A DNA stretch of 64,000 nt from Pseudogemmobacter lacusdianii (GTDB taxonomy: Bacteria; Pseudomonadota; Alphaproteobacteria; Rhodobacterales; Rhodobacteraceae): contig NZ_JAVDBT010000005.1 of the NCBI RefSeq assembly GCF_030848395.1, forward strand, positions 62,001 through 126,000. The letters run 5' to 3'. Numbering within the stretch: the first letter of the stretch is position 1; each line of letters begins with the position of its first letter. The notes beneath the pieces are model-generated. The model worked only from the letters and a program-made list of their open reading frames with translations. It ran no database searches and had not been told where the DNA came from. The position numbers and the translations under genes were made by a program. Below are positions 43,535 to 64,000 of this stretch, one piece after another.

Positions 43535-43550
43535 CCTGCTCTTACCCTGC

Positions 43551-43579
43551 GGGCGGCCCCGTTTGGGGCCGCCCATTTT
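43551..43579 (+). terminator. Hairpin between binding-protein and permease genes
   Basis: A perfect 10-bp stem (GGGCGGCCCC/GGGGCCGCCC) with a GTTT loop and ATTTT after it. In ABC operons such hairpins often keep the binding protein at higher levels than the permease by partial termination or 3'-end protection. Confidence 0.7.
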
Positions 43580-43634
43580 GTTTGCCACTGCCCGCACCTT
43601 GCGCCGGGCATCTTCCCGTTAGGACCTTTCGCCT

Positions 43635-46668: not shown

Positions 46669-46915
46669 GGCGGACCCTTCCGTGGGAGAATTTCGACGGC
46701 GATATCCAATCGGCAGATGAGTGTCCATATCACTGCTGCGCTGGGTTTTAAGGTCTGTCTCGAGGGGGTTGCGAAGGGCGTTTATCGCCAGACTTTAAGG
46801 ATTTATGGGGGCAAGCGGACGGGCCCAGAAATGCAGCGAGGCGACCGGGTTGGCTTGAGCCGCCTTGGGGGCCGATGGGTGGCAAAGGGCAGGGCCGAGA
46901 GCGCGGCCGACCGTC

Positions 46916-47788: not shown

Positions 47789-49396
47789 TTAGGCCTGACG
47801 GGCCGCGAGCAGGTTGTCGAGCCAGTCGGGGTCCATTTCGGGGACCGAGGAGAGCAAAAGCTCGGTATAAGCGGCATGTGGTGGGGCAAAGATCTCGTCT
47901 TTGCTGCCTTGCTCAACCACACGGCCGTTTTGCATCACCACCACATGATCGGCGATGGCGCGCACAGTCGCGAGATCATGGGTGATGAAAAGATAGCCCA
48001 GCCCACGCTCGCGTTGCAGCCGGTCCAGGAGCCGCAAGATGCCTTCGGCGACGATTTGGTCAAGCGCGCTGGTCACCTCATCGCAGATGATCAAATCGGG
48101 TTCGGCTGCCAAGGCGCGGGCGATGCAGACGCGTTGTTTCTGACCGCCCGAAAGCTCGCTTGGCAGGCGGTTGATGAAAAGATCGGGGTCCAGCTCGATC
48201 TCGGTCAAAAGCTCGCGGATGCGGTCTTCCTTGGCGCGGCCGCGCAGGCCTAGGTAAAACTCCAGCGGCCGGCCCAGCACCTCACGGATGGTGTGGCGCG
48301 GGTTCAGCGCGGTGTCGGCGCTTTGGTGGATCATTTGCATGCGCTTCAGCATGCTGCGCGGGCGGTCACGGTTCTTGGCGGGCAGCATTTGGCCGTCGAA
48401 CTTCACCAGCCCGGCGGTGGGCGGCAAAAGCCCCATTGCCACGCGTGCGGTGGTGGACTTGCCCGAGCCGCTTTCGCCGACCACGGCCACGGTTCTGCCG
48501 CGGTGCGCGGCGATGGTGACGCGGTCCAGCACTTTATGGGTGCCGTAAGAGGCATCGACGCCGGTGATCTCAAGCAGCGGCGGGCCTTCGGGGAGGGGCC
48601 CGCGCGGCGAGGCTTGGAACTCACGCACGGCCCAAAGCGATTTGGTATAGGCCTCTTTGGGATGGGCCAGCATCTCGCGGGCAGGGGCGTCTTCGACCTC
48701 TTCGCCCTTGAGCAAAACCTTGATGCGGTCGGCCATCTGGGCCACGACCGCAAGGTCATGGGTGATGTAGATTGCAGCCGAGCCGTGGTTGCGCACGATG
48801 TCGCGGATCGCGGCGAGAACCTCGATCTGGGTGGTGACGTCCAGCGCGGTGGTCGGTTCGTCAAAGATGATGAGGTCCGGCTTGCAGGCCATCGCCATCG
48901 CGGTCATCGCGCGCTGCAATTGCCCGCCCGAGATCTGGTGCGGGAAGCGAAAGCCGATCTGATCGGGGTCGGGCAGGCGCATCTCACTGTAAAGGCGTAC
49001 GGCTTCCGCCTCGGCTTCGCTGCGCGACATGACGCCGTGTCGGATCGGGGCCTCGCAATGCTGTGCGATGATGCGCCAAGCCGGGTTGAAGGAGGCGGCC
49101 GAGGATTGCGCGACATAGGCGATGCGGCGGCCGCGCAGCTTGCGCAGCTCTTCCGTCGAAGCACCGACCAGCTCTTGCCCGTCAAAACGGATCGAACCGC
49201 TTGAGATGCGGCAGCCGGGGCGCACATGGCCCATTGCCGTCAGACCAAGGGTGGATTTCCCCGCGCCGCTTTCGCCGATCAGCCCCAGAACCTCGCCGCG
49301 GTGCAGATCAAGGCTGACGCCTTTGACGATCTCATTCCAGCCATTGCTGCCGCGGCCTTCGATGCGGAGGTCGCGGATTTCCAACAGTTTTTCCAT
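47789..49396 (-). CDS. Peptide/nickel-type ABC transporter, fused double ATPase (DppD-DppF)
   Basis: A 535-residue protein with two complete ABC ATPase domains. Domain 1 (about 1-265): Walker [10 protein letters not shown], signature [10 protein letters not shown], Walker [13 protein letters not shown], switch YITHDLAVV. Domain 2 (about 275-520): [45 protein letters not shown]. Each is followed by an oligopeptide-type C-terminal helix. It would power import through the two permeases encoded upstream. The gene starts three bases after the dppC-like stop. The cargo is unknown; the link to histidine genes is discussed in the findings. Confidence 0.92.
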
Positions 49397-49399
49397 GGT

Positions 49400-50257
49400 T
49401 CAGTCCTTCAATCCGCTGGAAAGGTGCAGCACCCAATCGACGACCAGATTGACCGAGACGGTCAGGATCGCGATGGCGGCCGCAGGCAGGAGCGGAGCCA
49501 GGCCGAAGGTTGCCGTTTGCCAGCTTGAGAAGTTGGCGAAGGAGATCAGGCGCGCACTTTCGCGCACCATCGAGCCCCAATCCGCTGTCGGCGGTTGCAA
49601 CCCTAGACCAAGGAAGCTGAGGGCGGCGATAAAGAGAAAGACAAAGCAGAAGCGCAGGCCAAACTCCGCGATCAGCGGTGCGGCGGCATTGGGCAGGATC
49701 TCGCGGCGGACGATCCAGCCCAGTCCCTCGCCACGCATCCGCGCGACTTCGATATAGTCCAAGGTTAGGATGCCTTGCGCCACAGCGCGCGACAGGCGGA
49801 AGACGCGGGTGCTGTCGAGCACGGCGATGACCAAGATCAGCGCCACCACGGATGTGCCGGTGATGGTGAGGATCAGCAGGGCGAAAATCAGCGAAGGGAT
49901 CGCCATCAGCACATCGACCAGCCGCGACAGCGCGGTGTCGACCCAGCCGCCCATCGTGGCGGCCACCAGCCCTAGGGTGGAGCCGATTAAGAAGGCCAAG
50001 CCGGTGGCCATCAAGGCGATGCCGACGGTGTTTCTGGCGCCATAGATCAGCCGCGACAGCACATCTCGGCCCAAGGCGTCGGTGCCAAGGTAATAGGGCG
50101 CGACCCAAGGTTGATAGGTGGGCCCGACGACCTCTTGCTCGGCGTAGGGCGCGATGAGGGGGGCGAAGATGGCAAGCACGGCGTAGAGCAGGATCAAGCT
50201 CATCCCGAGCTTTGCCGAGAACGGAGCACTGCGCATGGCTGAAAGGCTAAGCGCCAT
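49400..50257 (-). CDS. Peptide-type ABC transporter permease (DppC-like)
   Basis: A 285-residue permease with six helices. It starts LSLILLYAVLAIFAPLIAPYAEQE, the N-terminal OppC pattern, and carries APYYLGTDALGRDVLSRLIYGAR, the classical DppC/OppC motif. The EAA loop is EVARMRGEGLGWIVRREILPNAAAPLIAEF. GAGG lies eight bases before the ATG. It is the middle gene of a three-gene unit, five bases after dppB. Confidence 0.92.
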   Translation of the reverse strand: MALSLSAMRSAPFSAKLGMSLILLYAVLAIFAPLIAPYAEQEVVGPTYQPWVAPYYLGTDALGRDVLSRLIYGARNTVGIALMATGLAFLIGSTLGLVAATMGGWVDTALSRLVDVLMAIPSLIFALLILTITGTSVVALILVIAVLDSTRVFRLSRAVAQGILTLDYIEVARMRGEGLGWIVRREILPNAAAPLIAEFGLRFCFVFLFIAALSFLGLGLQPPTADWGSMVRESARLISFANFSSWQTATFGLAPLLPAAAIAILTVSVNLVVDWVLHLSSGLKD

Positions 50258-50262
50258 GGAGA

Positions 50263-51231
50263 TTACCTCGGGTGCAGAAGGCGCGGGTTAGAGGCAATGC
50301 CAATCAGGTCCGCAACCAAGTTGAGAAGAATATAGGTCGCCGCGAAGATCAGGCAGGCGGCCTGCACCACGGGCATATCGCGCTTTGCCACGCTGTCGAC
50401 CAGCAATTGGCCAAGGCCGGGATAGACGAAGACCACTTCGACCAGCACGACGCCGACGATAAGATAGGCAAGGTTTAGCGCGATCACGGTGACAATCGGC
50501 GCGACCGCATTCGGCAAGGCGTGAATGGCGATGACGCGCCAAGCTTTCATGCCCTTAAGTTCGGCCATTTCGATATAGGGCAGGGCGAGCAGGTTCACGA
50601 TCGCTGCGCGGGTCATCCGCATCATATGCGCGGCCACGATCAAGACCATCGTCAGCGCCGGCAGGAAGGCGGTGTGCAGCCGATCCGCCAAGGTCATGTC
50701 CGGGGTCACGTTGGCAAGGCTGGGGAACCAGCCCAATTGTACTGAAAAGAGCAAGATCAGGATATAGGCCACGAAGAACTCGGGGAAGGAGATCACCGTG
50801 AGCGTGGTGCCCGAGATCCAGCGGTCCAGCAGGCCGCCGCGGTATAGCGCTGCCAAGAGGCCAAGGCCCACCGAAAGCGGCACTGCGATCGCGGCAGCAT
50901 AACCCGCCAAGAAGAAGGTGTTGAAGGCGCGGTCCGAAATCAGATCTGCAATCGGACGTCGGTTTGCCAGCGACAGGCCAAAATCGCCCTGCACCGCATT
51001 GCCCAGCCAAGCCAGATAGCGCGTCATCGGCGGATCGGTCAGGCCAAATTGCTCTTTGAAGGCGGCAATCGTCTCGGGCGAGGCGGATTGGCCCAGCACC
51101 TCGGTGGCGATGTCGCCGGGCAAAAGCTCAACCGCCCAGAAAATCACGGCTGACACGATGAGCAGTGTCAGGAGACCGATGCCCAGTCGCCTGAGCACAA
51201 GAAGCGGAATCGGTGACAATTTGGTTGGCAT
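50263..51231 (-). CDS. Peptide-type ABC transporter permease (DppB-like)
   Basis: A 322-residue permease of the OppB/DppB family: RRLGIGLLTLLIVSAVIFWAVELLPGDIATEVLG, then FGLTDPPMTRYLAWLGNAVQGDFGLSL, the standard N-terminal signature. The EAA loop includes MAELKGMKAWRVIAIHALPNAVAPIVT. The ORF is open to an ATG at 51264, but that codon lies inside the HutC-type operator and has no ribosome site. I therefore place the start at ATG 51231, with AGAAG upstream. First gene of the permease/ATPase unit, divergent from hutC; the binding protein is encoded separately at 58158. Confidence 0.9.
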   Translation of the reverse strand: MPTKLSPIPLLVLRRLGIGLLTLLIVSAVIFWAVELLPGDIATEVLGQSASPETIAAFKEQFGLTDPPMTRYLAWLGNAVQGDFGLSLANRRPIADLISDRAFNTFFLAGYAAAIAVPLSVGLGLLAALYRGGLLDRWISGTTLTVISFPEFFVAYILILLFSVQLGWFPSLANVTPDMTLADRLHTAFLPALTMVLIVAAHMMRMTRAAIVNLLALPYIEMAELKGMKAWRVIAIHALPNAVAPIVTVIALNLAYLIVGVVLVEVVFVYPGLGQLLVDSVAKRDMPVVQAACLIFAATYILLNLVADLIGIASNPRLLHPR

Positions 51232-51250
51232 TCTGGCAGGACTTCTTTCG

Positions 51251-51266
51251 TTATGTATAGTCATAA
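51251..51266. promoter_or_regulatory. HutC-type operator in the dppB-hutC divergent region
   Basis: TTATGTATAGTCATAA: inverted arms TTATG/CATAA with a six-base centre. The core TGTATAGTCA matches the sites at 52282, 58062 and 61248. It lies between the two divergent genes and could repress both. Confidence 0.6.
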
Positions 51267-51370
51267 TCCAGAAGTTTGCCGCGCAGTCTAGTAAAATATT
51301 GGCTCGACACCCCTAATTGTTGCTTGCATTTTGAGCGCGCTTCAAACTTGAGCAGTTGAGGGGCGGCGTG

Positions 51371-52063
51371 ATGCGTTCGGCGACTTATCGTGAGATCAAG
51401 GCAGATTTATTACGGCGAATCCTGGGTGGAGAATGGCTGCCCGGCAGCTTGGTGCCGAACGAACAACAGCTTGCGCAAGAGTTCAAGGCTGCGCGTGCAA
51501 CCGTCAATCGAGCGATGCGCGAGCTGGTGGATGAGGGGATCATCGAGCGGCGGCGCAAGGCTGGCACGCGGGTGCGCAAAGCGCCGGTGCGCACGGTGCG
51601 TTTTGCGGTGCCTCTGACCCAGCGCGAGATCTCTGAGCGCGGCTCGGCCTATGGGCACACACTGCTCATGTCAGAGATTGTGCCGGCGCAAGATTGGTTG
51701 GCAGAGCGGCTGAATGTGACCTCGGGGGCCGAGGTGATGCATGTGATCTGCCTGCATTCGGCGGATGGTGAGCCCTACCAATTGGAGGATCGCTGGATCA
51801 ATCTGGCGGCGACGCCCGCTGCGCGCGAGGCGGATTTCACCCAGAACGGCCCGATGGAATGGTTGGTGCAGCAGGTGCCCTTTTCGGACGTTGAGGTCAG
51901 CATGTCGGCGGCGCTGGCCACGAAAGAGCAGGCAAGGCTGCTGAAATCGGCGCTGGGCGATGCGCTCTTTCGCGTTGATCGGCGCACGATCTGGCGCGAT
52001 GAGGTGGTGGCCTATGTCACGCTTCTACATCGCCCGGATTACCAGATGACGGGCCGCTACTAA
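51371..52063 (+). CDS. hutC: HutC-type GntR-family repressor
   Basis: A 230-residue regulator. The GntR winged helix (about 4-68) reads TYREIKADLLRRILGGEWLPGSLVPNEQQLAQEF and VNRAMRELVDEGIIERRRKAGTRV. The C-terminal UTRA domain has the HutC hallmarks QLEDRWINLAATPA, ADFTQNGPMEWL and a terminal TLLHRPDYQMTGRY. HutC repressors are released by urocanate. ATG 51371 has GAGGGGCGG upstream. Between the transporter and the Rieske genes, and with four similar sites in this cluster including the hutF/hutI region, it probably controls the whole set. Confidence 0.87.
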   Translation: MRSATYREIKADLLRRILGGEWLPGSLVPNEQQLAQEFKAARATVNRAMRELVDEGIIERRRKAGTRVRKAPVRTVRFAVPLTQREISERGSAYGHTLLMSEIVPAQDWLAERLNVTSGAEVMHVICLHSADGEPYQLEDRWINLAATPAAREADFTQNGPMEWLVQQVPFSDVEVSMSAALATKEQARLLKSALGDALFRVDRRTIWRDEVVAYVTLLHRPDYQMTGRY

Positions 52064-52278: not shown

Positions 52279-52295
52279 TTTTGTCTATACATAAA
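52279..52295. promoter_or_regulatory. HutC-type operator upstream of the Rieske oxygenase gene
   Basis: TTTTGTCTATACATAAA is an imperfect palindrome around TGT-CTAT-ACA. On the other strand it reads TTATGTATAGACA, almost identical to the site before dppB. It ends 14 bases before the ATG and just upstream of the GGAGG ribosome site. Confidence 0.65.
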
Positions 52296-52309: not shown

Positions 52310-53347
52310 ATGTTCCTGCGCAACAGCTGGTATGTGGCGGCTTGGGATCACGAGGTCGGCACTGGCCTCTTCCCCGTCAAAATGCTTGGCGAAAACATCG
52401 TCCTTTATCGCAAACTCAACGGTCAAGTGGCCGCTCTTGAGGATGCCTGCCCGCACCGCAAGCTGCCGTTGTCGATGGGACGAATCAAAGGTGATACGGT
52501 TGAGTGCGGCTATCATGGCCTGACCTTTGACAGCACCGGCACTTGCACCCGCGTGCCCGGCGTTGAGAAGATCCCGCATGTGGCTTGCGTGCGGTCCTAC
52601 CCGATCGAAGAGCGTTATGGCCTTTTGTGGGTCTGGATGGGCGATGCCGACAAGGCTGATCCCGCGCTGATCTTTGAAGTCGACCATTGGGGCGACCCGG
52701 CTTGGGGCGTGAACCGTGGCGACTCTATGCAGATCAACTGCAACTACCTTTACATGACCGACAACCTGTTGGACCCGTCGCATGTGGCTTGGGTTCACCA
52801 AACCTCCTTCGGCAATGCCGCGACCGAAGAGGCTCCGCTTGAGACCACCATCGGCGAAAAGGGCGTCACCGTCTGGCGCTGGATGATGGATGTTGAGCCT
52901 GCGCCCTTCTATGCGCCTTTCTTGAAGTTCAAAGGCAACTGCGACCGCAAGCAGCACTATGAAGTGCACTATCCCAGCCATGCCATCATCAAGTCGATCT
53001 TCTCGCCCGCCGGTGCCGGTGGTGAGGGCCGTCCGTTCGTCGATGATACCTTCTTGATGGACAGCTATAACTTCATGACGCCGATCGACGAGAACACGAC
53101 CAAATACTATTGGTTCCAGATGCGCAACTTCGCTCCGAACGACGCAGAAGTGTCGCGTCAGTTTGCGGTTTCGGTGCGTGGCGCCTTTGATGAAGATCGC
53201 GCTGTGCTGACGGCGGTGCATAAGGGTATGGCTGAAAAGCAAACCCCGAACCTTGATCTGAAGATCGACGTGGGTCCGCTGCGCTTCCGCCGCAACCTTG
53301 CCAAGATGATCGAGGCCGAACAGGCACAGAAAGTCGCGGCTGAGTGA
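52310..53347 (+). CDS. Rieske [2Fe-2S] oxygenase, VanA-like demethylase family
   Basis: A 345-residue terminal oxygenase. The Rieske cluster ligands are C47, H49, C66 and H69 (CPHR...CGYHG). The mononuclear iron site is N152/D155/H158/H163 in DNLLDPSHVAWVHQ. The N-terminal NSWYVAAWDHEV and the overall plan match VanA-type O- and N-demethylases. Such enzymes hydroxylate a methyl group, which leaves as formaldehyde. GGAGG five bases upstream gives a strong start. The stop overlaps the reductase ATG. A hut-type operator overlaps its promoter, so a methylated histidine-like substrate is a plausible but unproven idea. Confidence 0.9.
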   Translation: MFLRNSWYVAAWDHEVGTGLFPVKMLGENIVLYRKLNGQVAALEDACPHRKLPLSMGRIKGDTVECGYHGLTFDSTGTCTRVPGVEKIPHVACVRSYPIEERYGLLWVWMGDADKADPALIFEVDHWGDPAWGVNRGDSMQINCNYLYMTDNLLDPSHVAWVHQTSFGNAATEEAPLETTIGEKGVTVWRWMMDVEPAPFYAPFLKFKGNCDRKQHYEVHYPSHAIIKSIFSPAGAGGEGRPFVDDTFLMDSYNFMTPIDENTTKYYWFQMRNFAPNDAEVSRQFAVSVRGAFDEDRAVLTAVHKGMAEKQTPNLDLKIDVGPLRFRRNLAKMIEAEQAQKVAAE

Positions 53348-54459
53348 TGACTGCCAACGACCGGCCCGCTTCGGGGAAAGCTGGTTTTCGCGGCCTGAAA
53401 GTGGTTGCGAAAACCGTCGAGAGCAGCTTGATCACCTCGATCTACCTTGAGGCGGAGGACGGCAGTGTACTGCCGTCCTTCCGGCCGGGCCAGTTTCTGG
53501 TCTTCAAGTTCCCGGCCGAGAACGACAAGGGCTATGTGCTGCGCAACTATAGCCTTTCGGGGGCGCCGGATGACCAGATGCGCTACCGCATCTCGGTCAA
53601 GCGAGAGCCTGCGGCGGGGCCGGATCTGCCGGTGGGTTTCGGCTCAAACCACCTGCATGATCAGGTTGAAATCGGCGATGTCCTCAGCGTCGAAGGTCCG
53701 CGCGGTGAGTTTGTGCTTGATGAGCAAAGCGATCGCCCGGTGGTCTTGCTCAGCGGTGGCGTTGGGCTGACGCCGATGGTCTCGATGCTGCATGCTTTGG
53801 CGCAGCGTTCAGAGCGTCGCGCGCTGTTCGTACATGCTTGTGAGAATGGCGATGTCCATGCTTTGCGCCGTGAAGTGGATGCGGTGATCGGGCAGCGCGC
53901 GGGACTTGCGGCGCATTACCGCTACCGCATGCCGCTGGATGCAGACCGCTCTGCGGGCCATTTCCACGGCGAGGGTGTGATCACCCGCGAGGTGCTGCAA
54001 GAGCTGTTGTGCCTTGATGATTATGAGTTCTACCTCTGTGGCCCACCCGGCTTCATGCAGGCGGTCTATCAGACATTGCGCGGGCTTGGCGTGGCCAAGG
54101 ACCGCATAGCCTATGAATTCTTTGGCCCCGCCACGGTGCTTGATACCGAAGTGAAGCCTATCGTTGCGGCAGCCCCTGTCGCTGCACCGGCTGAAGCGGG
54201 GGAGGCGATCACCGTCGAATTCCGCAAGTCGGGGATCACGGTGGCTTGGGATGATGCGACTGGCTCGATCCTTGATCTGGCCGAGAATGCCGGGCTGACG
54301 CCGGACTTCAGCTGCCGCGCCGGCATCTGCGGCACCTGCGTTGCGCGCAGCCTCTCGGGCGAGGTGAGCTATTTCGAAGACCCGTTGGATGAGATGGGCG
54401 AGGGCGAGGTTCTGCTTTGCTGCTCTCGGCCAAAGACCGCCCTCGTATTGGATCTGTGA
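53347..54459 (+). CDS. Oxygenase reductase: FAD/NAD(P)H domains plus C-terminal [2Fe-2S] ferredoxin
   Basis: A 370-residue electron-transfer partner for the Rieske oxygenase. The FNR-type flavin domain carries RNYS (residues 66-69) and the later GVGLTPMVSML of the nucleotide-binding domain. EFYLCGPPGFMQAV follows. After an Ala/Pro linker (about 275-290) a plant-type ferredoxin supplies CRAGICGTC and a distant LCCS. The order flavin-NAD-ferredoxin matches reductases of VanB-like and betaine/stachydrine demethylase systems. ATG 53347 overlaps the upstream stop (TGATG). Partnership is inferred from adjacency. Confidence 0.9.
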   Translation: MTANDRPASGKAGFRGLKVVAKTVESSLITSIYLEAEDGSVLPSFRPGQFLVFKFPAENDKGYVLRNYSLSGAPDDQMRYRISVKREPAAGPDLPVGFGSNHLHDQVEIGDVLSVEGPRGEFVLDEQSDRPVVLLSGGVGLTPMVSMLHALAQRSERRALFVHACENGDVHALRREVDAVIGQRAGLAAHYRYRMPLDADRSAGHFHGEGVITREVLQELLCLDDYEFYLCGPPGFMQAVYQTLRGLGVAKDRIAYEFFGPATVLDTEVKPIVAAAPVAAPAEAGEAITVEFRKSGITVAWDDATGSILDLAENAGLTPDFSCRAGICGTCVARSLSGEVSYFEDPLDEMGEGEVLLCCSRPKTALVLDL

Positions 54460-54464
54460 CGCGC

Positions 54465-55601
54465 ATGACAAATCACACGCCCCCTCGCGACCTCAGGCCT
54501 GCGGCCTTGCAGGTCAATCCGCATGTCTCGGCCCTGCCGACCTATAATGCCGGCATGTCGCTGGACAAGGCGCGGGCGATCAGTGGCCATGAAGAGCTGG
54601 CGCGGCTGGCCAGCAATGAAAACCCCGACGGATGCTCTCCGGCGGTGCGGGCGGCCTTGGCCAGCGCCGCCTTTGATCCGTCGCGCTATGCCGATCCGGC
54701 CTGCACGGCCTTGCGGGAGGCTTTGGCGGCGCGGCTTGGGGTTGAGCCGGGCGTGATCGTGGCGGGCAATGGCTCGGAAGAGATGATTGCCGCGATCTCG
54801 CGCGGGGTGCTGACGCCAGAGGCTCAGGTTGTGACCGTTGTGCCAAGCTTTGGCCTGCATGAGATTGAGCCTTTGGCGGCGGGTGCCTCGGTCTTGAAGG
54901 TGCCGATGACGGGGGAGGCGGGCTTTGACCTTGCAGCCTTGGAGGCGGCGATTGCTGCGGGTCCGCGCGTGGTCTTCCTGTCGTCGCCTTGGAACCCAGT
55001 TGGCCCGGCGCTGGATCAAAATGCGCTTGATCGGCTGATCGCGGCGGTCCGGCCCGGCACCTTGTTCGTGCTGGACGAGGCCTATTTCGAATTCGCCGAT
55101 GCGGGTCTACCCGATGGGATCGAGGTGCTGCGCAACAGCGGCATCAACTGGATCGTGCTGCGCACCTTCTCAAAGGCCTATGGGTTGGCAGGTTTGCGCG
55201 TCGGCTATGCGGTCTGCTCGGACACCGAGATTGCCCGCGTGGTCGGCGCCGCAAAGACGCCTTTCAACGTCAATTGCGCGGCGCAGATTGCGGCCACAGC
55301 GGCGCTGGCGGATGAGGCTTGGATGAAAGCCTCGGTCGCGGGGACGCGGGCCGAGCGGCTGCGCGTCGAGGCGGCTTTCGCAGAAATGGGGCTGCGCGCG
55401 GCCTCCTCGCAGACGAACTTTTTGTTCTTTGACTGCGGGCGCGACAGCAGCGAGATGGCGACGAGCCTGCTGATGGCCGGGATCATCGTCAAACCTTGGC
55501 GCGAGCCCGGCTATACAAGCTGGCTGCGGGCGACCATTGGCAAACCGGCCGAGAACGACCGGTTGATCGCGGCTTTGCGCGCGCTTACGGTCGCGGCATG
55601 A
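54465..55601 (+). CDS. HisC-like class I/II aminotransferase
   Basis: A 378-residue PLP aminotransferase related to histidinol-phosphate aminotransferase. ASNENPDGCSPAVRAAL, GNGSEEMIAAISRGVL, VFLSSPWNPVGPAL, LFVLDEAYFEFAD and the PLP lysine in LRTFSKAYGLAGLRVGYA are visible. Housekeeping hisC would be expected elsewhere. Here it sits five bases after the reductase and overlaps the FAD enzyme by four bases, so it belongs to this catabolic operon. It could interconvert imidazole-pyruvate (or a methylated form) and the matching histidine. The substrate is an inference from neighbours. Confidence 0.85.
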   Translation: MTNHTPPRDLRPAALQVNPHVSALPTYNAGMSLDKARAISGHEELARLASNENPDGCSPAVRAALASAAFDPSRYADPACTALREALAARLGVEPGVIVAGNGSEEMIAAISRGVLTPEAQVVTVVPSFGLHEIEPLAAGASVLKVPMTGEAGFDLAALEAAIAAGPRVVFLSSPWNPVGPALDQNALDRLIAAVRPGTLFVLDEAYFEFADAGLPDGIEVLRNSGINWIVLRTFSKAYGLAGLRVGYAVCSDTEIARVVGAAKTPFNVNCAAQIAATAALADEAWMKASVAGTRAERLRVEAAFAEMGLRAASSQTNFLFFDCGRDSSEMATSLLMAGIIVKPWREPGYTSWLRATIGKPAENDRLIAALRALTVAA

Positions 55602-56986
55602 GCCACAGCCCCGCATCTTCCGAACTGATCTCTTTGCGGCAGGAACTGGCGGGCATCGTCGGTGCCAGCCATCTGCGCGAGGATCTTGGCCCGGAGCATG
55701 GGGCCAAGCTGATGGCACTGCCCGCCTCGACCGAAGAGGTCGCGGCACTCGTCCAGCTTTGTGCCGCGCGTGGGGTCAGCATTGTCCCCGAGGGCGGCGG
55801 CACTGGGCTGGTTGGCGGGACTTTGTCGCAACCGGGGCAGTTGGTTATCTCATTGACCCGGATGGCAAAGATTGAAGCCATCTATCCGGACGAGCGTGTC
55901 GCGGTCGTGCAGGCGGGCGTGCCGCTTGAGGTGTTGCAAAGTGCCGCGGCGCTGCATGGGCTGGAGCCGGGGATCGACCTGCCAGCCCGTGGCACAGCGA
56001 CGATTGGCGGCATGGTTTCGACCAATGCGGGCGGCATCATGGCGCATCGCTACGGGGTGATGCGGCACCGGGTGCTGGGCTTGGAAGCGGTGCTGCCGGA
56101 TGGTCAGATCTACTCCGATCTGACCCGGGTGGTGAAAAACGCCGCTGGCTACGATCTGAAGCATCTTTTCATCGGGGCGGAAGGCACGCTTGGGCTTGTG
56201 ACGCGGGTGGTTTTGAAGCTTGAGCCTTTGCCCGCAGCCTCGGCCACGGTGCTTTTGGGGCTGCCGTCGTTTGACGCCGCGCTTCAGGCGATCAACCTTG
56301 CGATGAAGACCGAGATTGGGCATCTGCGCGGTGCCGAGGGACTTTGGCAAAGCTACATCCGGCTGACGGCGCAGGCGCATGGTTGGTCAGAGCCGAGCTT
56401 CCCGCTCGATCAGCCGGTCAATCTTTTGCTGATGCTGGGAGGCGGTGATGAGGCCGCTTTGCAGGGCGCCATCGAGGGGATCTTCGGCAGCATCCTTGAG
56501 GCCTATCCCAGCGCCACCGGCATTATTGCCGCATCGAAGCGCCAAGAGGCCGATCTGTGGCGGCTGCGCGAGGACACCGATGTCCTTTATCGCACCCATA
56601 AGGCGGCGCCCTCTTATGACGTCTCGGTGCCGCTGTCCGAGATTGCGGGCTATGTTGACCATGTCACGCAGGGACTGGCGGCGCTGGATGGCGGGATTAA
56701 GCCTTATGTTTTCGGGCATTTGGCCGATGGTAACCTGCATATCGTGTTGGACCGCACGGGGCCGATGGCACCCGGCCTAACCGCATCGGTGGAAGAGGTG
56801 CTTTACGCGCCGCTGCGCGCGCTGGGGGGCAGTTTCTCGGCCGAGCATGGTGTGGGTTCAAAGCGGATCGGATCTTTGATCGCGACGGTGGACGCTGGAA
56901 AGCTGCAAATGATGACGCAGCTTAAACGCACACTGGACCCGGGCAATCTTTTGAACCCCGGCAAGGTGTTGAGCTTGAAATCCTAA
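55598..56986 (+). CDS. FAD-linked 2-hydroxyacid dehydrogenase (GlcD/D-lactate dehydrogenase type)
   Basis: A 462-residue flavoprotein of the VAO/PCMH group. The FAD-binding half has IVPEGGGTGLVGGTL and GTATIGGMVSTNAGG, followed by EGTLGLVTRVVLKL. The C-terminal half has the metal-ligand pattern VFGHLADGNLHI and FSAEHGVGSKRI. Members oxidise D-lactate, glycolate or other D-2-hydroxy acids to 2-oxo acids. Coupling with a HisC-like aminotransferase suggests a hydroxy-acid such as imidazole-lactate feeding into a 2-oxo acid and then an amino acid. ATG 55598 overlaps the previous stop (ATGA). Confidence 0.87.
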   Translation: MSHSPASSELISLRQELAGIVGASHLREDLGPEHGAKLMALPASTEEVAALVQLCAARGVSIVPEGGGTGLVGGTLSQPGQLVISLTRMAKIEAIYPDERVAVVQAGVPLEVLQSAAALHGLEPGIDLPARGTATIGGMVSTNAGGIMAHRYGVMRHRVLGLEAVLPDGQIYSDLTRVVKNAAGYDLKHLFIGAEGTLGLVTRVVLKLEPLPAASATVLLGLPSFDAALQAINLAMKTEIGHLRGAEGLWQSYIRLTAQAHGWSEPSFPLDQPVNLLLMLGGGDEAALQGAIEGIFGSILEAYPSATGIIAASKRQEADLWRLREDTDVLYRTHKAAPSYDVSVPLSEIAGYVDHVTQGLAALDGGIKPYVFGHLADGNLHIVLDRTGPMAPGLTASVEEVLYAPLRALGGSFSAEHGVGSKRIGSLIATVDAGKLQMMTQLKRTLDPGNLLNPGKVLSLKS

Positions 56987-57019: not shown

Positions 57020-57952
57020 CTATTTCGGTTTGACCGTGCCCTCGCGCCGCGGGCGAGATTGGGCGATGGTCCAGTTAAGGAACTCACGCGCCACGTCGCG
57101 CGCCAAGCTCGCTGCACCCCAGCAGATGAAATAGGATTCGTTGAGCGGCATGGCATCGTCCGAAAGCCGGATCAAACGGCCGGATTCAACATCGGCCTCG
57201 GCAAAGGCGGCCTGTGCCAGCACGACGCCTTGGCCGGCGATCGCGGCTTCAAGCCCGAAGCTCGACAGCGAATAGATCGTCGCCATTTTGGGCTGGCCCG
57301 ACAGCCGCTGCCCGCGCCTTGCAAACCATTCGGTCCAAGTGGGCGATGCGGTCTCGCCCATGCCCCAATCCACCTCGATCAAGGGCACATTCATCAAGCC
57401 GGAGTCGGTTGCGGCCTCGGGGTGGGCCTGCAAAAACTCGGGTGAGCAGGCGGGGAAACAGGTGTCGCGGAACAAGAGCCGCGAATGCGGATAGCGCGCA
57501 GCGGCATTGCCATAGGTCAGGCGAAAGCCGTGATCCATCAACTGGGGATCGGTCTCGCGATGGGTGGCCACGATGCGAATCGACGGGTCCTGCGCAGCGG
57601 CCTGAAAGCGGTGGATGATCGGGTGCAGCCATTTTTGCAAAAGCGTCGGCAGGCCCGAGATCACCAGATCTTCAGACATGCGTTGGGCGAGGATGAAATC
57701 TGAGGCGCGGGTCAGGCGGTCGAAGCCTTGCGCGATCATCTCGTGGTAAATTCGGGCCGCCGGGGTCAGCCCGATGCGTCGTCCCTCACGGATCAGCAGG
57801 GGAAAGCCGACATGCTCTTCCAATAAGCGCAGCTGCTGGCTGATCGCGCCGGGCGTCACACCAAGGCTGCGCGCCGCGCCGTGCACGGTGCTGGTGCGGC
57901 CAAAGGCATCAAACGCCTGCAAAGCACGCAAGGGGGGCAGACCTTTGCTCAT
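57020..57952 (-). CDS. LysR-family regulator, GcvA-like
   Basis: A 310-residue regulator. The winged helix starts LPPLRALQAFDAFGRTSTVHGAARSLGVTPGAISQQLRLLEEHVG (about 5-49), with the RALQAF entry typical of GcvA-like members. The effector domain includes LVISGLPTLLQKWLHP. It converges on the operon's last gene and is divergent from the binding-protein gene at 58158, with 205 bp between starts. It is likely to respond to a substrate of this cluster and may control the binding protein alongside HutC. The effector is unknown. Confidence 0.87.
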   Translation of the reverse strand: MSKGLPPLRALQAFDAFGRTSTVHGAARSLGVTPGAISQQLRLLEEHVGFPLLIREGRRIGLTPAARIYHEMIAQGFDRLTRASDFILAQRMSEDLVISGLPTLLQKWLHPIIHRFQAAAQDPSIRIVATHRETDPQLMDHGFRLTYGNAAARYPHSRLLFRDTCFPACSPEFLQAHPEAATDSGLMNVPLIEVDWGMGETASPTWTEWFARRGQRLSGQPKMATIYSLSSFGLEAAIAGQGVVLAQAAFAEADVESGRLIRLSDDAMPLNESYFICWGAASLARDVAREFLNWTIAQSRPRREGTVKPK

Positions 57953-58058: not shown

Positions 58059-58074
58059 TTAAGTACATACATAA
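58059..58074. promoter_or_regulatory. HutC-type operator upstream of the binding-protein gene
   Basis: TTAAGTACATACATAA reads TTATGTATGTACTTAA on the other strand. The core TGTATGTACT is close to the CTTGTATGTACAAG sequence reported for HutC in Pseudomonas. It lies about 85 bp before the ATG and within the LysR divergent region. Confidence 0.6.
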
Positions 58075-58157: not shown

Positions 58158-59714
58158 ATGACAATCTCACCCACTCGCCGTTCAATGCTGTTGGGAGCAG
58201 GCGCGATGTCGGCCGCCGCAGCGCTGGGGCTTGCGCCGCACCGCGCCCGCGCGCAAAGCACGCCGCAATCGGGCGGCACCTTCCGCATGGCGGTGTCCGA
58301 CTTCAGCACCGCCGACAGCCTTGACCCGCAGGTCAACGAATACCGCTTCATGATGCACCTGCAGTATCAACTGCGGAACTGCTTGATCGAAGTTGGCCCC
58401 GGCGGTGTCTTGGTGCCGGAACTGGCAACCGAATGGGGCCCGAACAACGATCTTACCGAATGGACCTTTAAGATCCGCTCGGGGGTTGAGTTCCATGACG
58501 GTCGCCCGCTGACCGCTGAAGATGTGGTTTGGTCGCTGAACCTGCACCGCGGCGAGAAGACCATCTCGGTTGCGAAGTCGATGCTGACCGCGATCACCGA
58601 TATTCAGGCCACTGGCCCGCTTGAGGTCAAGATCACACTGTCTGGCCCGAACGCAGGCTTCCCGGCGATCCTGTCGATGATCAACATGATCATCGTCCCG
58701 GCCGAGGACACTGATTTCAACAAAGGCGTCGGCACCGGCGGCTATATCCTTGAGACCTATGAGCCGGGCCTGCGCAGCGTTGTGCGGAAGAACCCGAACT
58801 ACTGGAAAGAGGGCCGGGCGCATTTCGACTCGATCGAGATCCACTGCATCGCCGACATCAACGCCCGCACCACCGCGCTGCAAACGGGCCAGATCGATGC
58901 AATGGGCTTTGTTGACACCACCACGGCGGGCCTGCTCAAAGCCTTCCCGGGGATCAACCTGATCCAAACTCAGGGTAAACTGCACCACGGTTTCGCGATG
59001 AACGTGACCGATCCGCTCTTCCGTGACGCGGATGTGCGCCGGGCGATGAAATATGCCATCGATCGCCATGAGATCTTGGACAAGATCCAGTCGGGCTATG
59101 GCTCGATCGCCAACGATCAGCCGCTCTCCAAGGCCTATGCCGCACATAACCCCGACCTACCGCAGTATGAATATGACCCCGAGCGGGCCAAGTCCTTGCT
59201 TGCGAAGGCTGGCGTTTCGGGGATGGTCGTGCCGCTGCACGTCTCGGAACTGCCCTTCACCGGCGCGGTCAATATGGCGCAGCTTTACGCCCAGCAGGCA
59301 TCGGCTGCCGGCATCACCATTGATGTGAAGCGCGAGCCCGATGACGGCTACTGGTCCAACATCTGGACCAAGCGTCCGATGTTCGCCACCCGGTGGTCGG
59401 GCCGCGTCAACGAAGATGCGATGCTGACGCTGGTTTACTCGCGCGAGAGCATCGGCACCTTCAACGAAAGCAGTTGGGACAATGAGGCGTTCAACAACGC
59501 TTTGGTCGCGGCGCGCGGCGAGAAGGACGAAGCCAAGCGCAAGGAAATCTATTGGGAGTGCCAGCGCATCATCTGGGAAGATGCGGGCCTCGTGGCGCCG
59601 ATCTGGGCAGATTTCTTGGACGCCACCTCGTCCAAAGTGGGTCATGGCGAGATCGCCAACGACTGGGAGCTTGACGGTGCACGCTGCGGCGAGCGCTGGT
59701 GGTTCAACGCCTGA
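58158..59714 (+). CDS. Peptide-type ABC transporter substrate-binding protein (family 5), Tat-exported
   Basis: A 518-residue periplasmic binding protein. The N-terminus SPTRRSMLLGAGAMSAAAALGLA is a twin-arginine signal, with a likely cleavage site after ARA (residues 30-32). The SBP family-5 signature is EFHDGRPLTAEDVVWSLNLHRG, preceded by LDPQVNEYRFMMHLQYQLRNCLIE and followed by GTGGYILETYEPG. It most likely serves the DppBC-DF importer encoded at 47789-51231, since no other permeases are nearby and both promoters share the HutC-type motif. The cargo is unknown; family members carry peptides, metals or small cations. Confidence 0.9.
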   Translation: MTISPTRRSMLLGAGAMSAAAALGLAPHRARAQSTPQSGGTFRMAVSDFSTADSLDPQVNEYRFMMHLQYQLRNCLIEVGPGGVLVPELATEWGPNNDLTEWTFKIRSGVEFHDGRPLTAEDVVWSLNLHRGEKTISVAKSMLTAITDIQATGPLEVKITLSGPNAGFPAILSMINMIIVPAEDTDFNKGVGTGGYILETYEPGLRSVVRKNPNYWKEGRAHFDSIEIHCIADINARTTALQTGQIDAMGFVDTTTAGLLKAFPGINLIQTQGKLHHGFAMNVTDPLFRDADVRRAMKYAIDRHEILDKIQSGYGSIANDQPLSKAYAAHNPDLPQYEYDPERAKSLLAKAGVSGMVVPLHVSELPFTGAVNMAQLYAQQASAAGITIDVKREPDDGYWSNIWTKRPMFATRWSGRVNEDAMLTLVYSRESIGTFNESSWDNEAFNNALVAARGEKDEAKRKEIYWECQRIIWEDAGLVAPIWADFLDATSSKVGHGEIANDWELDGARCGERWWFNA

Positions 59715-59863: not shown

Positions 59864-61195
59864 TCAGAGCAGTTTGCGCATGACTTCGCTGGCGGCACGT
59901 CGGATCCGGTCCCGCTCGGGGTGGCGACCGTCTTGCACGACATGACGGCCCGAGGCCCAAACTTGGTCCACCGCGACGCCGCTGCCAAAGATCCAGCGGT
60001 CCAAAAGCGAGGCCGGGTTCGAAAGCGCCATCGGATCGCGCAGGGCCACAAGATCAGCGGGCGCGCCGGTTGCAAGCTCCTGCTGCGGCGCGGCCAAGGC
60101 CTGCGCACCACCTTGCAGGGCAGCGTTGAAGAGGGCGGTGCCGGTCGATCCAGCCTCGGTGCAGATGTTGCGACCCCGCAGCGATAGGCGCTGTGAATAT
60201 TCCAGCATCTGCAGCTCTTGCGCGACCGAGATCGCCACATTGCTGTCGGTGCCAACGCCGAACCTGCCACCTTGGGCCAAGAAGCCGGGGGCGGGGAAGA
60301 TACCATCGCCAAGGTTCGCCTCAGTCACCGGGCAGAGGCCTGCGACGGCGCCGCTTTGCGCGATGCCGGTGATCTCGGCTTCGGTCAGATGGGTGGCGTG
60401 GATCAAGCACCAATTCGGGCCGACCGGGGTCTCAGCCAGAAGTGCTTCAACCGGGCGCGCGCCGGAATGGGCAAGGCTGTCTTCAACCTCTTTCACCTGC
60501 TCGGCAATGTGGATGTGGAACGGCCGATCCGGCCATTGCGCGGCGAGATAGCGAATCTCCTCCGGCGTCGCACCGCGCAGTGAATGCGGCGCGAGACCGA
60601 GCCGGTCCTGCGGGCGGGTCATCCGGGCCTCACAGCGCTCCATTAGCCGGTCAAAGGCGTCGAGGCTGTGCAAGAAGCGGCGCTGGCCTTCGTTGGGCGC
60701 GGCGCCGCCAAAGCCGCCATGCGCGTAGAAAACCGGCAGATGCGTCAGCGCGATGCCGGTCTCTTCGGCGGCGGCAAAGATCCGCAGAGACAGCTCGGCC
60801 GGGTCGTCATAGGGGCGGCCATCGGGGGCGTGGTGCAGATAGTGGAACTCGCCCAGCCGGGTGTAACCGGCTTCAAGCATCTCAACGCAAGCCAGCGCGG
60901 CGATGGCTTGGACGCCCTCGGGGTTCAGTTGCAGTGCAAAGCGGTACATCACTTCGCGCCAGGTCCAGAAGCTGTCTTTGCCCGGCCCGCGCAGTTCCGT
61001 GAGCCCCGAGAAGCCGCGCTGGAACGTGTGGCTGTGCAGGTTGGGCATGCCCGGGATCAGCGCTTCGACCCGGGTGTCATCCGCCTGTGCCGGAACGCCG
61101 ACGCTTATCCCGGCAATCCGGCTCTCAGACAGCTCGACCCTTACATCCTCGACCCAGCCAGCGGGCAATAGGGCCGCTGCCGCATGAATGCGCAT
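59864..61195 (-). CDS. hutF: Formimidoylglutamate deiminase
   Basis: A 443-residue amidohydrolase converting N-formimidoyl-L-glutamate to N-formyl-L-glutamate and ammonia, the branch of histidine breakdown that continues with HutG deformylase. The metal motif HSHTFQRGFSGLTE, the substrate-side EMLEAGYTRLGEFHYLHH, LAPHSLRGA, FHIHIAEQ and FGVGTDSNV in the amidohydrolase barrel are visible. Length is normal. It is divergent from hutI, with a HutC-type site in the 157-bp gap. The presence of hutF points to the five-step pathway instead of direct FIGlu hydrolysis. Confidence 0.93.
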   Translation of the reverse strand: MRIHAAAALLPAGWVEDVRVELSESRIAGISVGVPAQADDTRVEALIPGMPNLHSHTFQRGFSGLTELRGPGKDSFWTWREVMYRFALQLNPEGVQAIAALACVEMLEAGYTRLGEFHYLHHAPDGRPYDDPAELSLRIFAAAEETGIALTHLPVFYAHGGFGGAAPNEGQRRFLHSLDAFDRLMERCEARMTRPQDRLGLAPHSLRGATPEEIRYLAAQWPDRPFHIHIAEQVKEVEDSLAHSGARPVEALLAETPVGPNWCLIHATHLTEAEITGIAQSGAVAGLCPVTEANLGDGIFPAPGFLAQGGRFGVGTDSNVAISVAQELQMLEYSQRLSLRGRNICTEAGSTGTALFNAALQGGAQALAAPQQELATGAPADLVALRDPMALSNPASLLDRWIFGSGVAVDQVWASGRHVVQDGRHPERDRIRRAASEVMRKLL

Positions 61196-61243: not shown

Positions 61244-61261
61244 TATATGTATATACTTGTT
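61244..61261. promoter_or_regulatory. HutC-type operator between hutF and hutI
   Basis: The AT-rich segment TATATGTATATACTTGTT contains TGTATATACT at 61248-61257, the same core as the other three sites, and the eight-base palindrome GTATATAC. It lies about 50 bp from the hutF start and about 95 bp from the hutI start. Confidence 0.6.
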
Positions 61262-61352: not shown

Positions 61353-62555
61353 ATGACCGCGACGCTTTGGACCAACGCCCGCATTGTGACCGCGGATGGC
61401 ACAACAACGCCCTCGGCGCCGGGCGCGCTGGAGCTTTTGACTGACGGTGGAAAGATCGTGGCTTTGGGCGCTGATCTGCCGCGTCAGGGCGCAAAGATCG
61501 TCGATTGCGAAGGCCGGCTGATGACGCCCGCGCCGATTGATTGCCACACCCATCTGGTCTTCGGCGGCGACCGCGCCTTTGAGTTTGAGCAGCGTCTTGA
61601 CGGCGTGGCCTATGAAGAGATCGCGCGGGCAGGGGGCGGCATCAAAGCCTCGATGCGCGCGACGCGGGCGATGGATGTGGACCAACTGGTCACCGCAAGC
61701 CTGCCGCGATTGGACCATTTGCTGGCCGAAGGGGTCAGCACGGTCGAGATCAAATCGGGCTACGGCCTGTCGGTTGAGGCCGAGTTGCACATGCTGCGCG
61801 CCGCCCGCGCGATGGAGACGCAGCGCAATGTGCGCATCCGCAAGACTTGGCTCGCCGCCCATGCGCTGCCGCCCGAATATGCGGGCCGCGCGGTGGATTA
61901 CATCCATGAGGTCGCGATTGCGGGACTGAATGCAGGCCATGCCGAAGGGCTGATCGATGCGGTCGATTCCTTCTGCGAGGGGATTGCATTCTCGACCGAA
62001 GAGCTGGCGCCGCTTTACGCACGGGCGAAGGCGTTGGGGTTGGATGTGAAAATCCACTCCGAGCAGCTTTCCCATGCTGGCGGCACCGCCTTTGCCGCGC
62101 GGCACGGCGCGCTTTCGGCCGATCACCTTGAATATGCCACCGCCGAGGATGCCGCGTTGATGGCGGCTTCAGGCACTGTGGCGGTGCTCTTGCCCGGTGC
62201 CTTCTACACCTTGCGTGAGACGGTGTTGCCTCCCGTTGAGGCCTTCCGCGCCGCAGGCGTGCCGATGGCGCTTTCGACCGATTGCAACCCCGGCACCTCG
62301 CCGCTGACCTCGATCTTGATGACCATGAACATGGGCGCGACGCTCTTTAGGCTGACGGTGTCGGAATGCCTGAAAGCTGTGACCTGCAATGCCGCGCAAG
62401 CGCTTGGTCTTTCAAACGAAACCGGGCGGATCGCGCCCGGACTCTCGGCCGATTTGGCGCTGTGGGATGTGGAAAGCCCCGCCCAGCTTGTCGCCCGTAT
62501 TGGCTTTAACCCGCTCCACTCCCGCGTCTTCAGAGGTGCAGAATGCCCGCAATGA
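61353..62555 (+). CDS. hutI: Imidazolonepropionase
   Basis: A 400-residue amidohydrolase that opens the ring of 4-imidazolone-5-propionate to give N-formimidoyl-glutamate. Visible are the metal motif [84 protein letters not shown] and [14 protein letters not shown]. Start ATG 61353 has GGAGA upstream; an earlier in-frame ATG at 61284 is less likely because homologues begin near here. Its stop overlaps the second possible hutH start, so hutI and hutH are translationally coupled. Confidence 0.94.
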
Positions 62556-64000
62556 CCCCGCTTATCCTGACCCCCGGAAACGCAACCCTGACCGAGCTTG
62601 AGCAGGTCTGGCGCGAAGGGCTTGTCGTGCGCCTGCACGATTCTGCCCGCGCGGGCATCGCCACCTCGGCCGAGCGGATCGCGGCGGCGGCGGCGGGCAA
62701 TGCGCCGGTTTACGGCGTCAATACCGGCTTTGGCAAACTCGCCTCGGTGCGGATCGCGCCGGCCGATACCGCCACGCTGCAACGCAACCTGATCTTGTCG
62801 CATTGCTGCGGCGTGGGTGAGCCGGTTGAGCCGCAAACCGTGCGGCTGATCATGGTGCTGAAGCTTCTGAGCCTTGGCCGTGGTGCCTCGGGCGTGCGGC
62901 CCGAACTGGTGGCGCTGCTCGAAGATATGCTGGCGCATGACGTGCTGCCGGTGATCCCGTCGCAAGGCTCGGTCGGCGCTTCGGGTGACTTGGCCCCGCT
63001 GGCCCATATGGCCGCCGTGATGCTGGGCGAGGGCCGGGCTTTGCACAAAGGCGTTGAGATGTCGGGCGCCGATGCGCTGGCAGCCGCCGGGCTGAAGCCT
63101 TTGACCTTGGCCGCGAAGGAAGGGCTGGCGCTGATCAACGGCACGCAAGTCTCGACCGCTTTTGCACTGGTCGGTCTTTTCGATGCCTTCCGTGCGGCCC
63201 GCGCGGCGCTGGTGGTCTCGTCGATGTCCACCGATGCGATCATGGGCTCGACCGCGCCCTTCATCGAGGAAATCCACACCCTGCGCGGCCATCGCGGCCA
63301 GATCATGTCGGCGCGCATCATCCGGGGGCTGATGGAAGGCTCGGCGATCCGCGAGAGCCACCAAGAGGGCGACAGCCGGGTGCAAGATCCCTATTGCATC
63401 CGCTGCCAGCCGCAAGTGACCGGCGCCTGCATTGACGTGCTTTTCCAAGCCGCGCGCACGCTGGAGATCGAGGCGAATGCCGCCACCGATAACCCGCTGG
63501 TGCTGACCAGCGCCGAAGGCGAGCCGTCGCTGATTATCTCGGGCGGGAACTTCCACGCCGAGCCGGTGGCGCTGGCCGCTGACCAGATCGCGCTGGCTTT
63601 GTCCGAGATCGGTGCCATCGCACAGCGCCGCATTGCGATGATGGTTGATCCGGCGATGAGCTTTGGCTTGCCGCCCTTCCTGACCAATGATCCGGGTCTG
63701 AACAGTGGGCTGATGATCGCCGAGGTCACCTCGGCCGCGCTGATGAGCGAGAATAAGCACCTCGCCAATCCCTGCTCGACCGATTCCACCCCGACCAGCG
63801 CCAACCAAGAGGACCATGTCAGCATGGCCGCTCATGGGGCGCGGCGCTTGCGTCGGATGAACGCAAACCTGGCGCATATCATCGGGATCGAGGCGATCTG
63901 TGCTGCCGCCGGGATCGAGGCGCGTGCGCCCTTGGCCACCTCGGGGCCCTTGGGTGCGGCTTTGGCGCGGCTGCGTCAGGACATCGCCCCGCTCGAGCAG
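62543..64000 (+). CDS. hutH: Histidine ammonia-lyase, 3' end beyond the window
   Basis: 486 codons are visible and the frame is open at the window edge; about 25 residues are missing compared with the usual 510. The enzyme removes ammonia from L-histidine to make trans-urocanate. The MIO prosthetic group forms from A146-S147-G148 in [45 protein letters not shown] and [20 protein letters not shown] are characteristic. ATG 62543 has AGAGG upstream; ATG 62552, overlapping the hutI stop as ATGA, is the alternative. hutU and hutG are expected beyond the edge. Confidence 0.95.

Follow-up and report, generated by a model that had tools for sequence, protein, structure and literature searches.

A small operon next to the histidine utilization (Hut) genes of Pseudogemmobacter lacusdianii is very probably a dedicated, HutC-linked peripheral module that feeds the Hut pathway. 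It lies in a stretch of 64,000 nucleotides (contig C45:62001-126000 of a 3.78 Mb genome), called the window below, and encodes on the plus strand, in this order, a Rieske oxygenase, its reductase, a HisC-like aminotransferase (AT) and a flavoprotein dependent on flavin adenine dinucleotide (FAD), here the FAD protein. On balance we lean to the view that AT and the FAD protein, in an operon linked to HutC and served by its own importer, would convert D-imidazolelactate to imidazolepyruvate and then to histidine. The initial annotation of this DNA had proposed such an entry to the Hut pathway apart from direct histidine uptake, and the proposal is supported: the pair is called Hut-feeding because hut genes adjoin the operon in this genome and in many others, because a HutC-operator-like site accompanies it, and because AT is not the housekeeping HisC.

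How might such a module work? A dedicated ATP-binding cassette (ABC) importer would bring in histidine derivatives, and if one that is methylated on a ring nitrogen enters in the same way, the Rieske oxygenase and its reductase would strip off the methyl group as formaldehyde. The FAD protein would oxidize D-imidazolelactate, or its ring-methylated form, to the 2-oxoacid and pass the electrons to the respiratory chain, and AT would then make L-histidine from imidazolepyruvate and glutamate. The histidine would finally run through HutH, HutU, HutI, HutF and HutG. Every substrate and the direction of every reaction in this scheme are what we infer from the genes described below.

The operon and its conserved neighbourhood

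The gene for the Rieske oxygenase (52310-53347) is followed on the same strand by that for a GbcB/VanB-like flavin/2Fe-2S reductase (53344-54459; FAD_binding_6, NAD_binding_1 and Fer2 domains; 134 bits against the GbcB model, below its cut-off of 500), by the AT reading frame (54465-55601, 378 amino acids) and by that of the FAD protein (55598-56986, 462 amino acids), and neighbouring genes overlap by at most 4 bases and stand at most 5 bases apart. As the initial annotation had stated, the last two genes follow the Rieske genes in the same run and overlap by four bases, an ATGA at 55598-55601 common to both. AT comes first and the FAD protein second, which is the reverse of the order that it had implied; the chemistry is unaffected by this. 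From the pair to hutF the distance is about 3 kb. Directly upstream of the operon stands HutC1 (51356-52063, plus strand), a HutC-type GntR repressor with GntR and UTRA domains that scores 262 bits against TIGR02018, whose cut-off is 220.

A search with an AT alignment, run with two peptide patterns, covered 84,980 species by a single genome apiece, and the best 80 of 103 loci were taken. These ATs are 58-82% identical to that of the window by best segment and belong to Rhodobacterales, Rhizobiales, Burkholderiales, Geminicoccaceae and others. For some comparisons L056, L057, L060 and L061 were added to give 84 loci, among which L057/L077 and L060/L076 are apparently the same contigs. Genes were called with our own codon-score caller, trained on 16 genes of the window, rather than with a published annotator; neighbours were labelled by similarity to window proteins or by one scanned member (by eye for PAAT permeases and ATPases). 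The counts are lower bounds, as genes at contig ends can be missed, and come from loci that were not dereplicated. In the 80 loci, the Rieske oxygenase is found in 69, the FAD protein in 61, the reductase in 56 and the LysR regulator in 52. At least one hut enzyme is encoded in 24 of them (HutH 24, HutU 20, HutG 15, HutI 14, HutF 8). AT is followed directly and on the same strand by the FAD protein in 51 of the 84 loci, 25 of which have the exact 4-base overlap according to our own start calls, and in 72 of 84 AT is directly preceded by the Rieske oxygenase or the reductase. Such conserved adjacency in 84 AT-bearing loci means that the pairing of AT with the FAD protein exceeds chance. The pair that the initial annotation treated as self-contained is real as a pair, but the conserved unit usually adds the Rieske oxygenase, the reductase and an importer.

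Families present in the flanks of at least nine of the 84 loci are those of the module, transporters, LysR, a HutC-type regulator, hut enzymes, two formaldehyde genes and PhyH, and three importer types stand in for one another from locus to locus. An unusual fusion of DUF2817 with an ABC ATPase (L057:13945-15897) belongs to a family found in 38 of the 80 loci, where its gene comes after that of AT or the FAD protein and ahead of that of a family-3 binding protein; it may link uptake with the removal of an acyl group from an N-acyl or peptide form. The PhyH-type 2-oxoglutarate oxygenase gene is seen at L105:7942-8745 and in eight more beta-proteobacterial loci, divergent from Rieske-AT-FAD and with operator-like sites in common.

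The hut linkage reaches beyond close relatives, since distant ATs (40-45% identical) in G001, G004, G007 and G014 also adjoin hut genes. At L156:741-10577, the gene of a distant hut-linked AT runs divergently to a cluster that comprises an LldD-like 2-hydroxyacid dehydrogenase of the flavin mononucleotide type, a HisD-family protein and a short-chain dehydrogenase/reductase (SDR). L157, L159 and L158 have clusters that resemble it, L158 with no LldD-like gene in the stretch seen; the families were tested in L156. Possibly this type of cluster is an L-acid counterpart, or else a sulfopropanediol cluster. Within the bacterial family of the window, AT is found at E <= 1e-70 in 11 of 394 genomes (6 at 56% identity or more, our own genome included). 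HutU is encoded in 10 of these 11, compared with 200 of the 394 overall, and the exception (G202) is a genome 71% complete. Eight rhizobial carriers (G443, G450-G452 and G454-G457) have an extra, weaker HutU-like gene, for which a thiourocanate hydratase is one possibility; models NF058530 and NF058531 exist for such enzymes.

Around the operon, genes for a Dpp-type ABC importer are divergent to that of HutC1: a fused DppD/DppF-type ATPase (47789-49396, two ABC_tran stretches and oligo_HPY), a DppC-type permease (49400-50257) and a DppB-type permease (50263-51264), all on the minus strand and 82%, 83% and 81% identical to their counterparts in G397. The family-5 solute-binding protein of the importer (58158-59714, plus strand; SBP_bac_5) is encoded 3′ of the operon and has a 76% orthologue beside the module in G397. 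Between the operon and this gene lies a GcvA-like LysR regulator (57020-57952, minus strand), whose family, LysR1 in the counts above, is often divergent to the module elsewhere. Then follow HutF formimidoylglutamate deiminase (59864-61195, minus strand; TIGR02022, 582.7 bits against a cut-off of 413), HutI imidazolonepropionase (61353-62555, plus strand; TIGR01224, 404 against 298) and HutH histidine ammonia-lyase (62543-64000, plus strand), whose gene extends beyond the window end. Past that end come hutG, a CaiB-type CoA-transferase, an acyl-CoA dehydrogenase (ACAD), hutU and hutD, and the hut cluster there also holds a second GntR/HutC-type gene (L053; label by eye). Just upstream of the module are genes of a betaine-type ABC transporter with an OpuAC binding protein (42380-45555), which we take to be HutXWV-like, and beside them that of a GbdR-like AraC regulator (45616-46728).

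Residues of the aminotransferase and the flavoprotein

Is AT simply HisC? The initial annotation called for a check on whether the genome has a separate housekeeping hisC, and it has one: the gene at C5 is the best match of the genome to TIGR01141 (hisC), with 319.9 bits, and adjoins a prephenate dehydrogenase gene. AT as the only hisC of the genome is therefore ruled out. AT itself passes the same model by 2 bits (278.6 bits, cut-off 276.55) and falls below the cut-off of NF003496 (428 bits, 540). When E. coli HisC is aligned with the window AT and 79 of the 84 locus ATs (five shorter than 331 amino acids were excluded), the PLP (pyridoxal phosphate) lysine and Arg335 are retained, and the equivalent of Arg322 is lysine in 80 of 80 rows. 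It is lysine also in the four more distant hut-linked ATs, and arginine in the HisC of this genome as well as in that of E. coli. In an IQ-TREE tree, 21 module ATs fall on one side of a branch with one change and support 96/96, as a clade apart from HisC; the tree has only two HisC rows on long outgroup branches, and as the exact placement of HisC is unsure, we take from the tree no more than that the module ATs form one clade. From these sequence features we conclude that AT is not the housekeeping HisC. Passages of PMC4703992 describe a related aromatic aminotransferase, that of Mycobacterium tuberculosis, in which an arginine swings to admit a dicarboxylate or an aromatic substrate. This arginine presumably occupies the position of Arg322.

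It could be argued that AT serves biosynthesis as a second HisC and that the FAD protein, unrelated to this, is a lactate or glycolate dehydrogenase, and the 2 bits by which AT clears the TIGR01141 cut-off speak for this. Another hisC in the genome, the separate AT clade, the lysine in place of Arg322 and a glcD score far below cut-off all speak against it, and we give the idea hardly any credit.

The FAD protein carries FAD_binding_4 and FAD-oxidase_C (PF01565 and PF02913); three further FAD-oxidase_C genes occur in the genome. Its score against glcD (TIGR00387) is 245 bits, where 567.9 is the cut-off, so that it does not rank as a GlcD equivalog; an identity as GlcD itself was ruled out by this score. 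When 64 module sequences are aligned with human D-2-hydroxyglutarate dehydrogenase, residues for the metal, the C1 carboxylate and the C2 hydroxyl are retained: equivalents of Arg386, His434 and His441 are present in all 64 rows, that of Thr390 is threonine in 62 and serine in 2, and those of Glu475 and the catalytic His476 are present in 63, one row being gapped. According to passages of PMC7801405, the D-2-hydroxyglutarate C5 carboxylate is bound by Lys401 and Asn443, in whose place D-lactate dehydrogenase (D-LDH) and GlcD have small or hydrophobic residues. In the module rows, the equivalent of Lys401 is serine in 64 of 64 and that of Asn443 is valine, isoleucine or alanine in 64 of 64. D-2-hydroxyglutarate dehydrogenase is ruled out by these residues as the identity of the FAD protein, and since the two equivalents are missing, the substrate is expected to be a 2-hydroxyacid whose side chain is not acidic. 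2-Hydroxyglutarate apart, the residues are compatible with 2-hydroxyacids, and by themselves they would suit lactate as well as imidazolelactate. Family membership points to the D-form of the substrate.

The family to which the FAD protein belongs consists of dehydrogenases, which hand their electrons on to acceptors. With that property, and with hut genes adjacent, the opposite direction, an escape from histidine to imidazolelactate that the initial annotation had kept as an option, is judged unlikely.

HutC-operator-like sites

The HutC site of Pseudomonas is TGTA-N2-TACA, with urocanate as effector, in passages of PMC12977541. One-mismatch matches to it number six in the window against 1.87 expected, and include those at 52282 and 61248 and one between the genes of LysR and the family-5 binding protein. 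The site at 52282-52291, TGTCTATACA, begins its core 27 bp before the Rieske ATG and is also an exact match to GTMTAKAC; the other at 61248-61257, TGTATATACT, lies between hutF and hutI. These are the two exact GTMTAKAC sites of the window, where 0.15 are expected; two were reached in 1 of 100 shuffles. It is to be noted that this core, behind which stands a GntR/HutC subfamily consensus reportedly due to Rigali in 2002, was picked after the window sites had been seen, while the test in the 80 loci is independent of the window. There, in 1,406,491 bases, 51 sites were found, 47 of them in the 14% of the bases that lie outside called genes. As many as 42 of the 51, from 25 loci, are at most 250 bp upstream of genes for AT, Rieske, a hut enzyme, the HutC2 family or CaiB. 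Ten control motifs, permuted or altered forms of the core, had between 1 and 37 sites overall and 0-7 upstream placements of this kind, and the top count of 7 came from the one closest to GTMTAKAC. The meaning of the operator-like sites is in position, not in count, and binding of HutC at the operon is what they would predict. A scan for inverted repeats in four promoter regions found no repeat in common among them. Two weaker operator-like sites are TTATGTATAGTCATAA at the dppB start (51251-51266, by eye) and AGTACATACA at 58062-58071, between the LysR and family-5 binding protein genes.

The pair could also be a general aromatic aminotransferase with an aromatic D-2-hydroxyacid dehydrogenase, acting for example on phenyllactate or indolelactate and merely placed near hut. 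Indeed, Family I-beta aminotransferases are described in passages of PMC4703992 as crossing between histidinol phosphate and aromatic amino acids. This explanation is improbable, since the linkage to hut recurs in several different gene orders and the promoters contain HutC-like operators.

Several points weigh against the reading proposed here, and it is fair to put them together. AT still exceeds the hisC cut-off, if by 2 bits, and the exchange of Arg322 for lysine is conservative. We know of no substrate or activity for any member. Earlier biochemistry on this route reportedly used imidazolyl-L-lactate, whereas the family of the FAD protein acts on D-acids. No obligate unit is seen either, as the FAD protein was not found in 19 and the Rieske oxygenase in 11 of the 80 loci, some of them on contigs that are cut short. 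HutU is encoded elsewhere in 31 of 31 carrier genomes that lack hut in the flank (31 of 56 such loci were checked), a figure that covers carriers alone, with no matched non-carriers. As to the operators, the window has no exact TGTA-N2-TACA, a consensus that comes from Pseudomonas, and of the one-mismatch sites one is inside the reductase gene and two are far outside the region. The 18 sites upstream of Rieske in the 80 loci are confined to a group of 10 related loci of beta-proteobacteria. Across our whole genome, TGTMTAKAC gives 15 rows (14 places), fewer than the 32 rows of its reversed control. Moreover, HutC sites of P. aeruginosa are little like the consensus in passages of PMC12772324, and therefore the consensus is no sure guide.

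Possible demethylation, a proposed wider funnel and known systems

The Rieske oxygenase consists of a Rieske and a VanA_C domain (PF00355 and PF19112). Its nearest solved chain is 7qwt and its next match DdmC, a dicamba O-demethylase; further solved relatives are NdmA, also a demethylase, and SxtT, a hydroxylase and one of the relatives that are not known as demethylases. Passages of PMC12445004 give 7qwt under the name GdmA. Among the 80 loci, a formaldehyde-activating (GFA) gene occurs in 12 and a FrmA-like gene in 10 (either in 13, both in 9), the FrmA label being given by eye where Pfam gives zinc alcohol dehydrogenase, and in Ensifer L135 and L143 such genes are within the operon. We read the Rieske enzyme as a probable demethylase, perhaps of methylhistidine, because of these neighbours and its VanA-type relatives. 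Rieske relatives that are 54-73% identical also lie at most 160 bp from hutU in at least eight genomes of the same family (G074, G076, G091, G092, G133, G177 with a partial match, G330 and G401), a lower bound obtained by comparing coordinates by hand in the 88 Rieske-bearing genomes of the 394. A second Rieske gene, 73% identical, is found 36 kb downstream (L054:7516-8568) in a different cluster, whose other members are ABC transporter genes, a gene of the creatininase family and two genes labelled by eye, one GST-like (glutathione S-transferase) and one M29/NicX-like, the latter without a Pfam match; this cluster is also in G076, directly beside hutU, and in G073, away from hutU.

With these data, could the operon be chiefly a pathway for ring-N-methylhistidine? 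The Rieske enzyme would then demethylate methylhistidine or its oxo- or hydroxyacid, AT and the FAD protein would act on N-methyl-imidazole oxo- and hydroxyacids, and plain imidazolelactate would be a side substrate. The formaldehyde genes, the hutU-linked Rieske relatives and the demethylases DdmC and NdmA are all in its favour. L114, however, has AT and the FAD protein with no Rieske gene inside a hut-CaiB-ACAD operon, and in L100, L103 and L107 AT stands beside hut without Rieske or the FAD protein (the contig of L103 ends after AT); the pair is therefore not tied to demethylation. Solved relatives such as SxtT also include hydroxylases. We regard a chiefly methylhistidine pathway as rather unlikely, though as the most serious of the rivals.

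The CaiB and ACAD genes of the hut operon (L053:1902-4230 on G000:C45, in the hutG-hutU interval, 0.9-3.2 kb past the window end) are a candidate route from imidazolepropionyl-CoA to urocanoyl-CoA. Among the 80 loci CaiB is found in 6 and ACAD in 5 (either in 6). The pair comes after the genes for Rieske, reductase, AT and FAD protein in G397, and in L080 and L081 operator-like sites lie upstream of it. Imidazolepropionate might alternatively be the start of a linear route in which the Rieske enzyme alpha-hydroxylates it to imidazolelactate, the FAD protein oxidizes this and AT makes histidine. All four genes would be explained in one line, and CaiB/ACAD, a candidate second route for imidazolepropionate, is in the same clusters. 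Alpha-hydroxylation beside a carboxylate would, however, be unusual for a VanA-type Rieske enzyme, and FrmA and GFA would be left unexplained, so that such a route is very improbable.

Returning to the Hut-feeding module, we can tentatively picture a mobile, HutC-linked funnel in alpha- and beta-proteobacteria, although it is less likely than not that all three branches hold: a Rieske demethylase would open ring-methylated histidine, the FAD protein and AT would recover D-imidazolelactate as histidine, and the CaiB CoA-transferase with the acyl-CoA dehydrogenase would turn imidazolepropionate into urocanate. If so, methylhistidine, imidazolelactate and imidazolepropionate, for which bacterial routes are old biochemistry or none, would for the first time have a gene set for their aerobic use. 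The question lends itself to direct test, since regulator, operator-like site and enzymes of defined families come together in one conserved operon. Imidazolelactate is among the root-exudate metabolites of common bean in passages of PMC4192682, and therefore soil rhizobia may meet it. Imidazolepropionate is a gut metabolite linked to diabetes in abstracts, and some clusters carry candidate genes for its destruction. In the open-licence literature searched, we found no gene assignment for bacterial consumption of imidazolelactate, methylhistidine or imidazolepropionate, no paper on imidazole lactate with histidine utilization, and none on methylhistidine with a Rieske demethylase; the passages searched of PMC13320830 and PMC11872695 contain nothing on imidazolelactate, nor on the consumption of imidazolepropionate. 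We take the system to be the Hut pathway extended by a peripheral funnel that is conserved, a description of which was not found in that literature.

How does the module compare with known systems? HisC as defined by TIGR01141 and AT are alike in fold family, in the PLP lysine, in Arg335 and in the imidazole-type substrate to be expected; AT differs in its separate clade, in lysine for Arg322, in a catabolic neighbourhood and in being a second copy in the genome. The FAD protein has its two domains and its metal and 2-hydroxyacid residues in common with LDHD, GlcD and D-2-hydroxyglutarate dehydrogenase. Without equivalents of Lys401 and Asn443 it is like LDHD and GlcD and unlike D-2-hydroxyglutarate dehydrogenase, and it differs from GlcD in falling far under the glcD cut-off and in having an aminotransferase and hut genes as partners. 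The imidazolyl-L-lactate route of Pseudomonas testosteroni is said to begin with an L-specific, NAD(P)-linked dehydrogenase and to lead from the hydroxyacid through imidazolepyruvate and histidine into Hut, the same steps that are proposed here for AT and the FAD protein. To our knowledge no genes are known for it. Here, unlike in that route, a flavoprotein of a D-acid family comes with a Rieske oxygenase, an importer and a HutC-like operator. Degradation of imidazolyl-L-lactate by P. testosteroni is the title subject of Coote and Hassall (1973), as given in the reference list of PMC5487837. With the canonical Hut pathway and HutC regulon, finally, the module has in common a HutC-type gene and an operator-like site at the operon and adjacent hut genes, and it departs from them in the peripheral funnel enzymes that are added, namely the Rieske oxygenase, AT and the FAD protein, with CaiB and ACAD in the same cluster.

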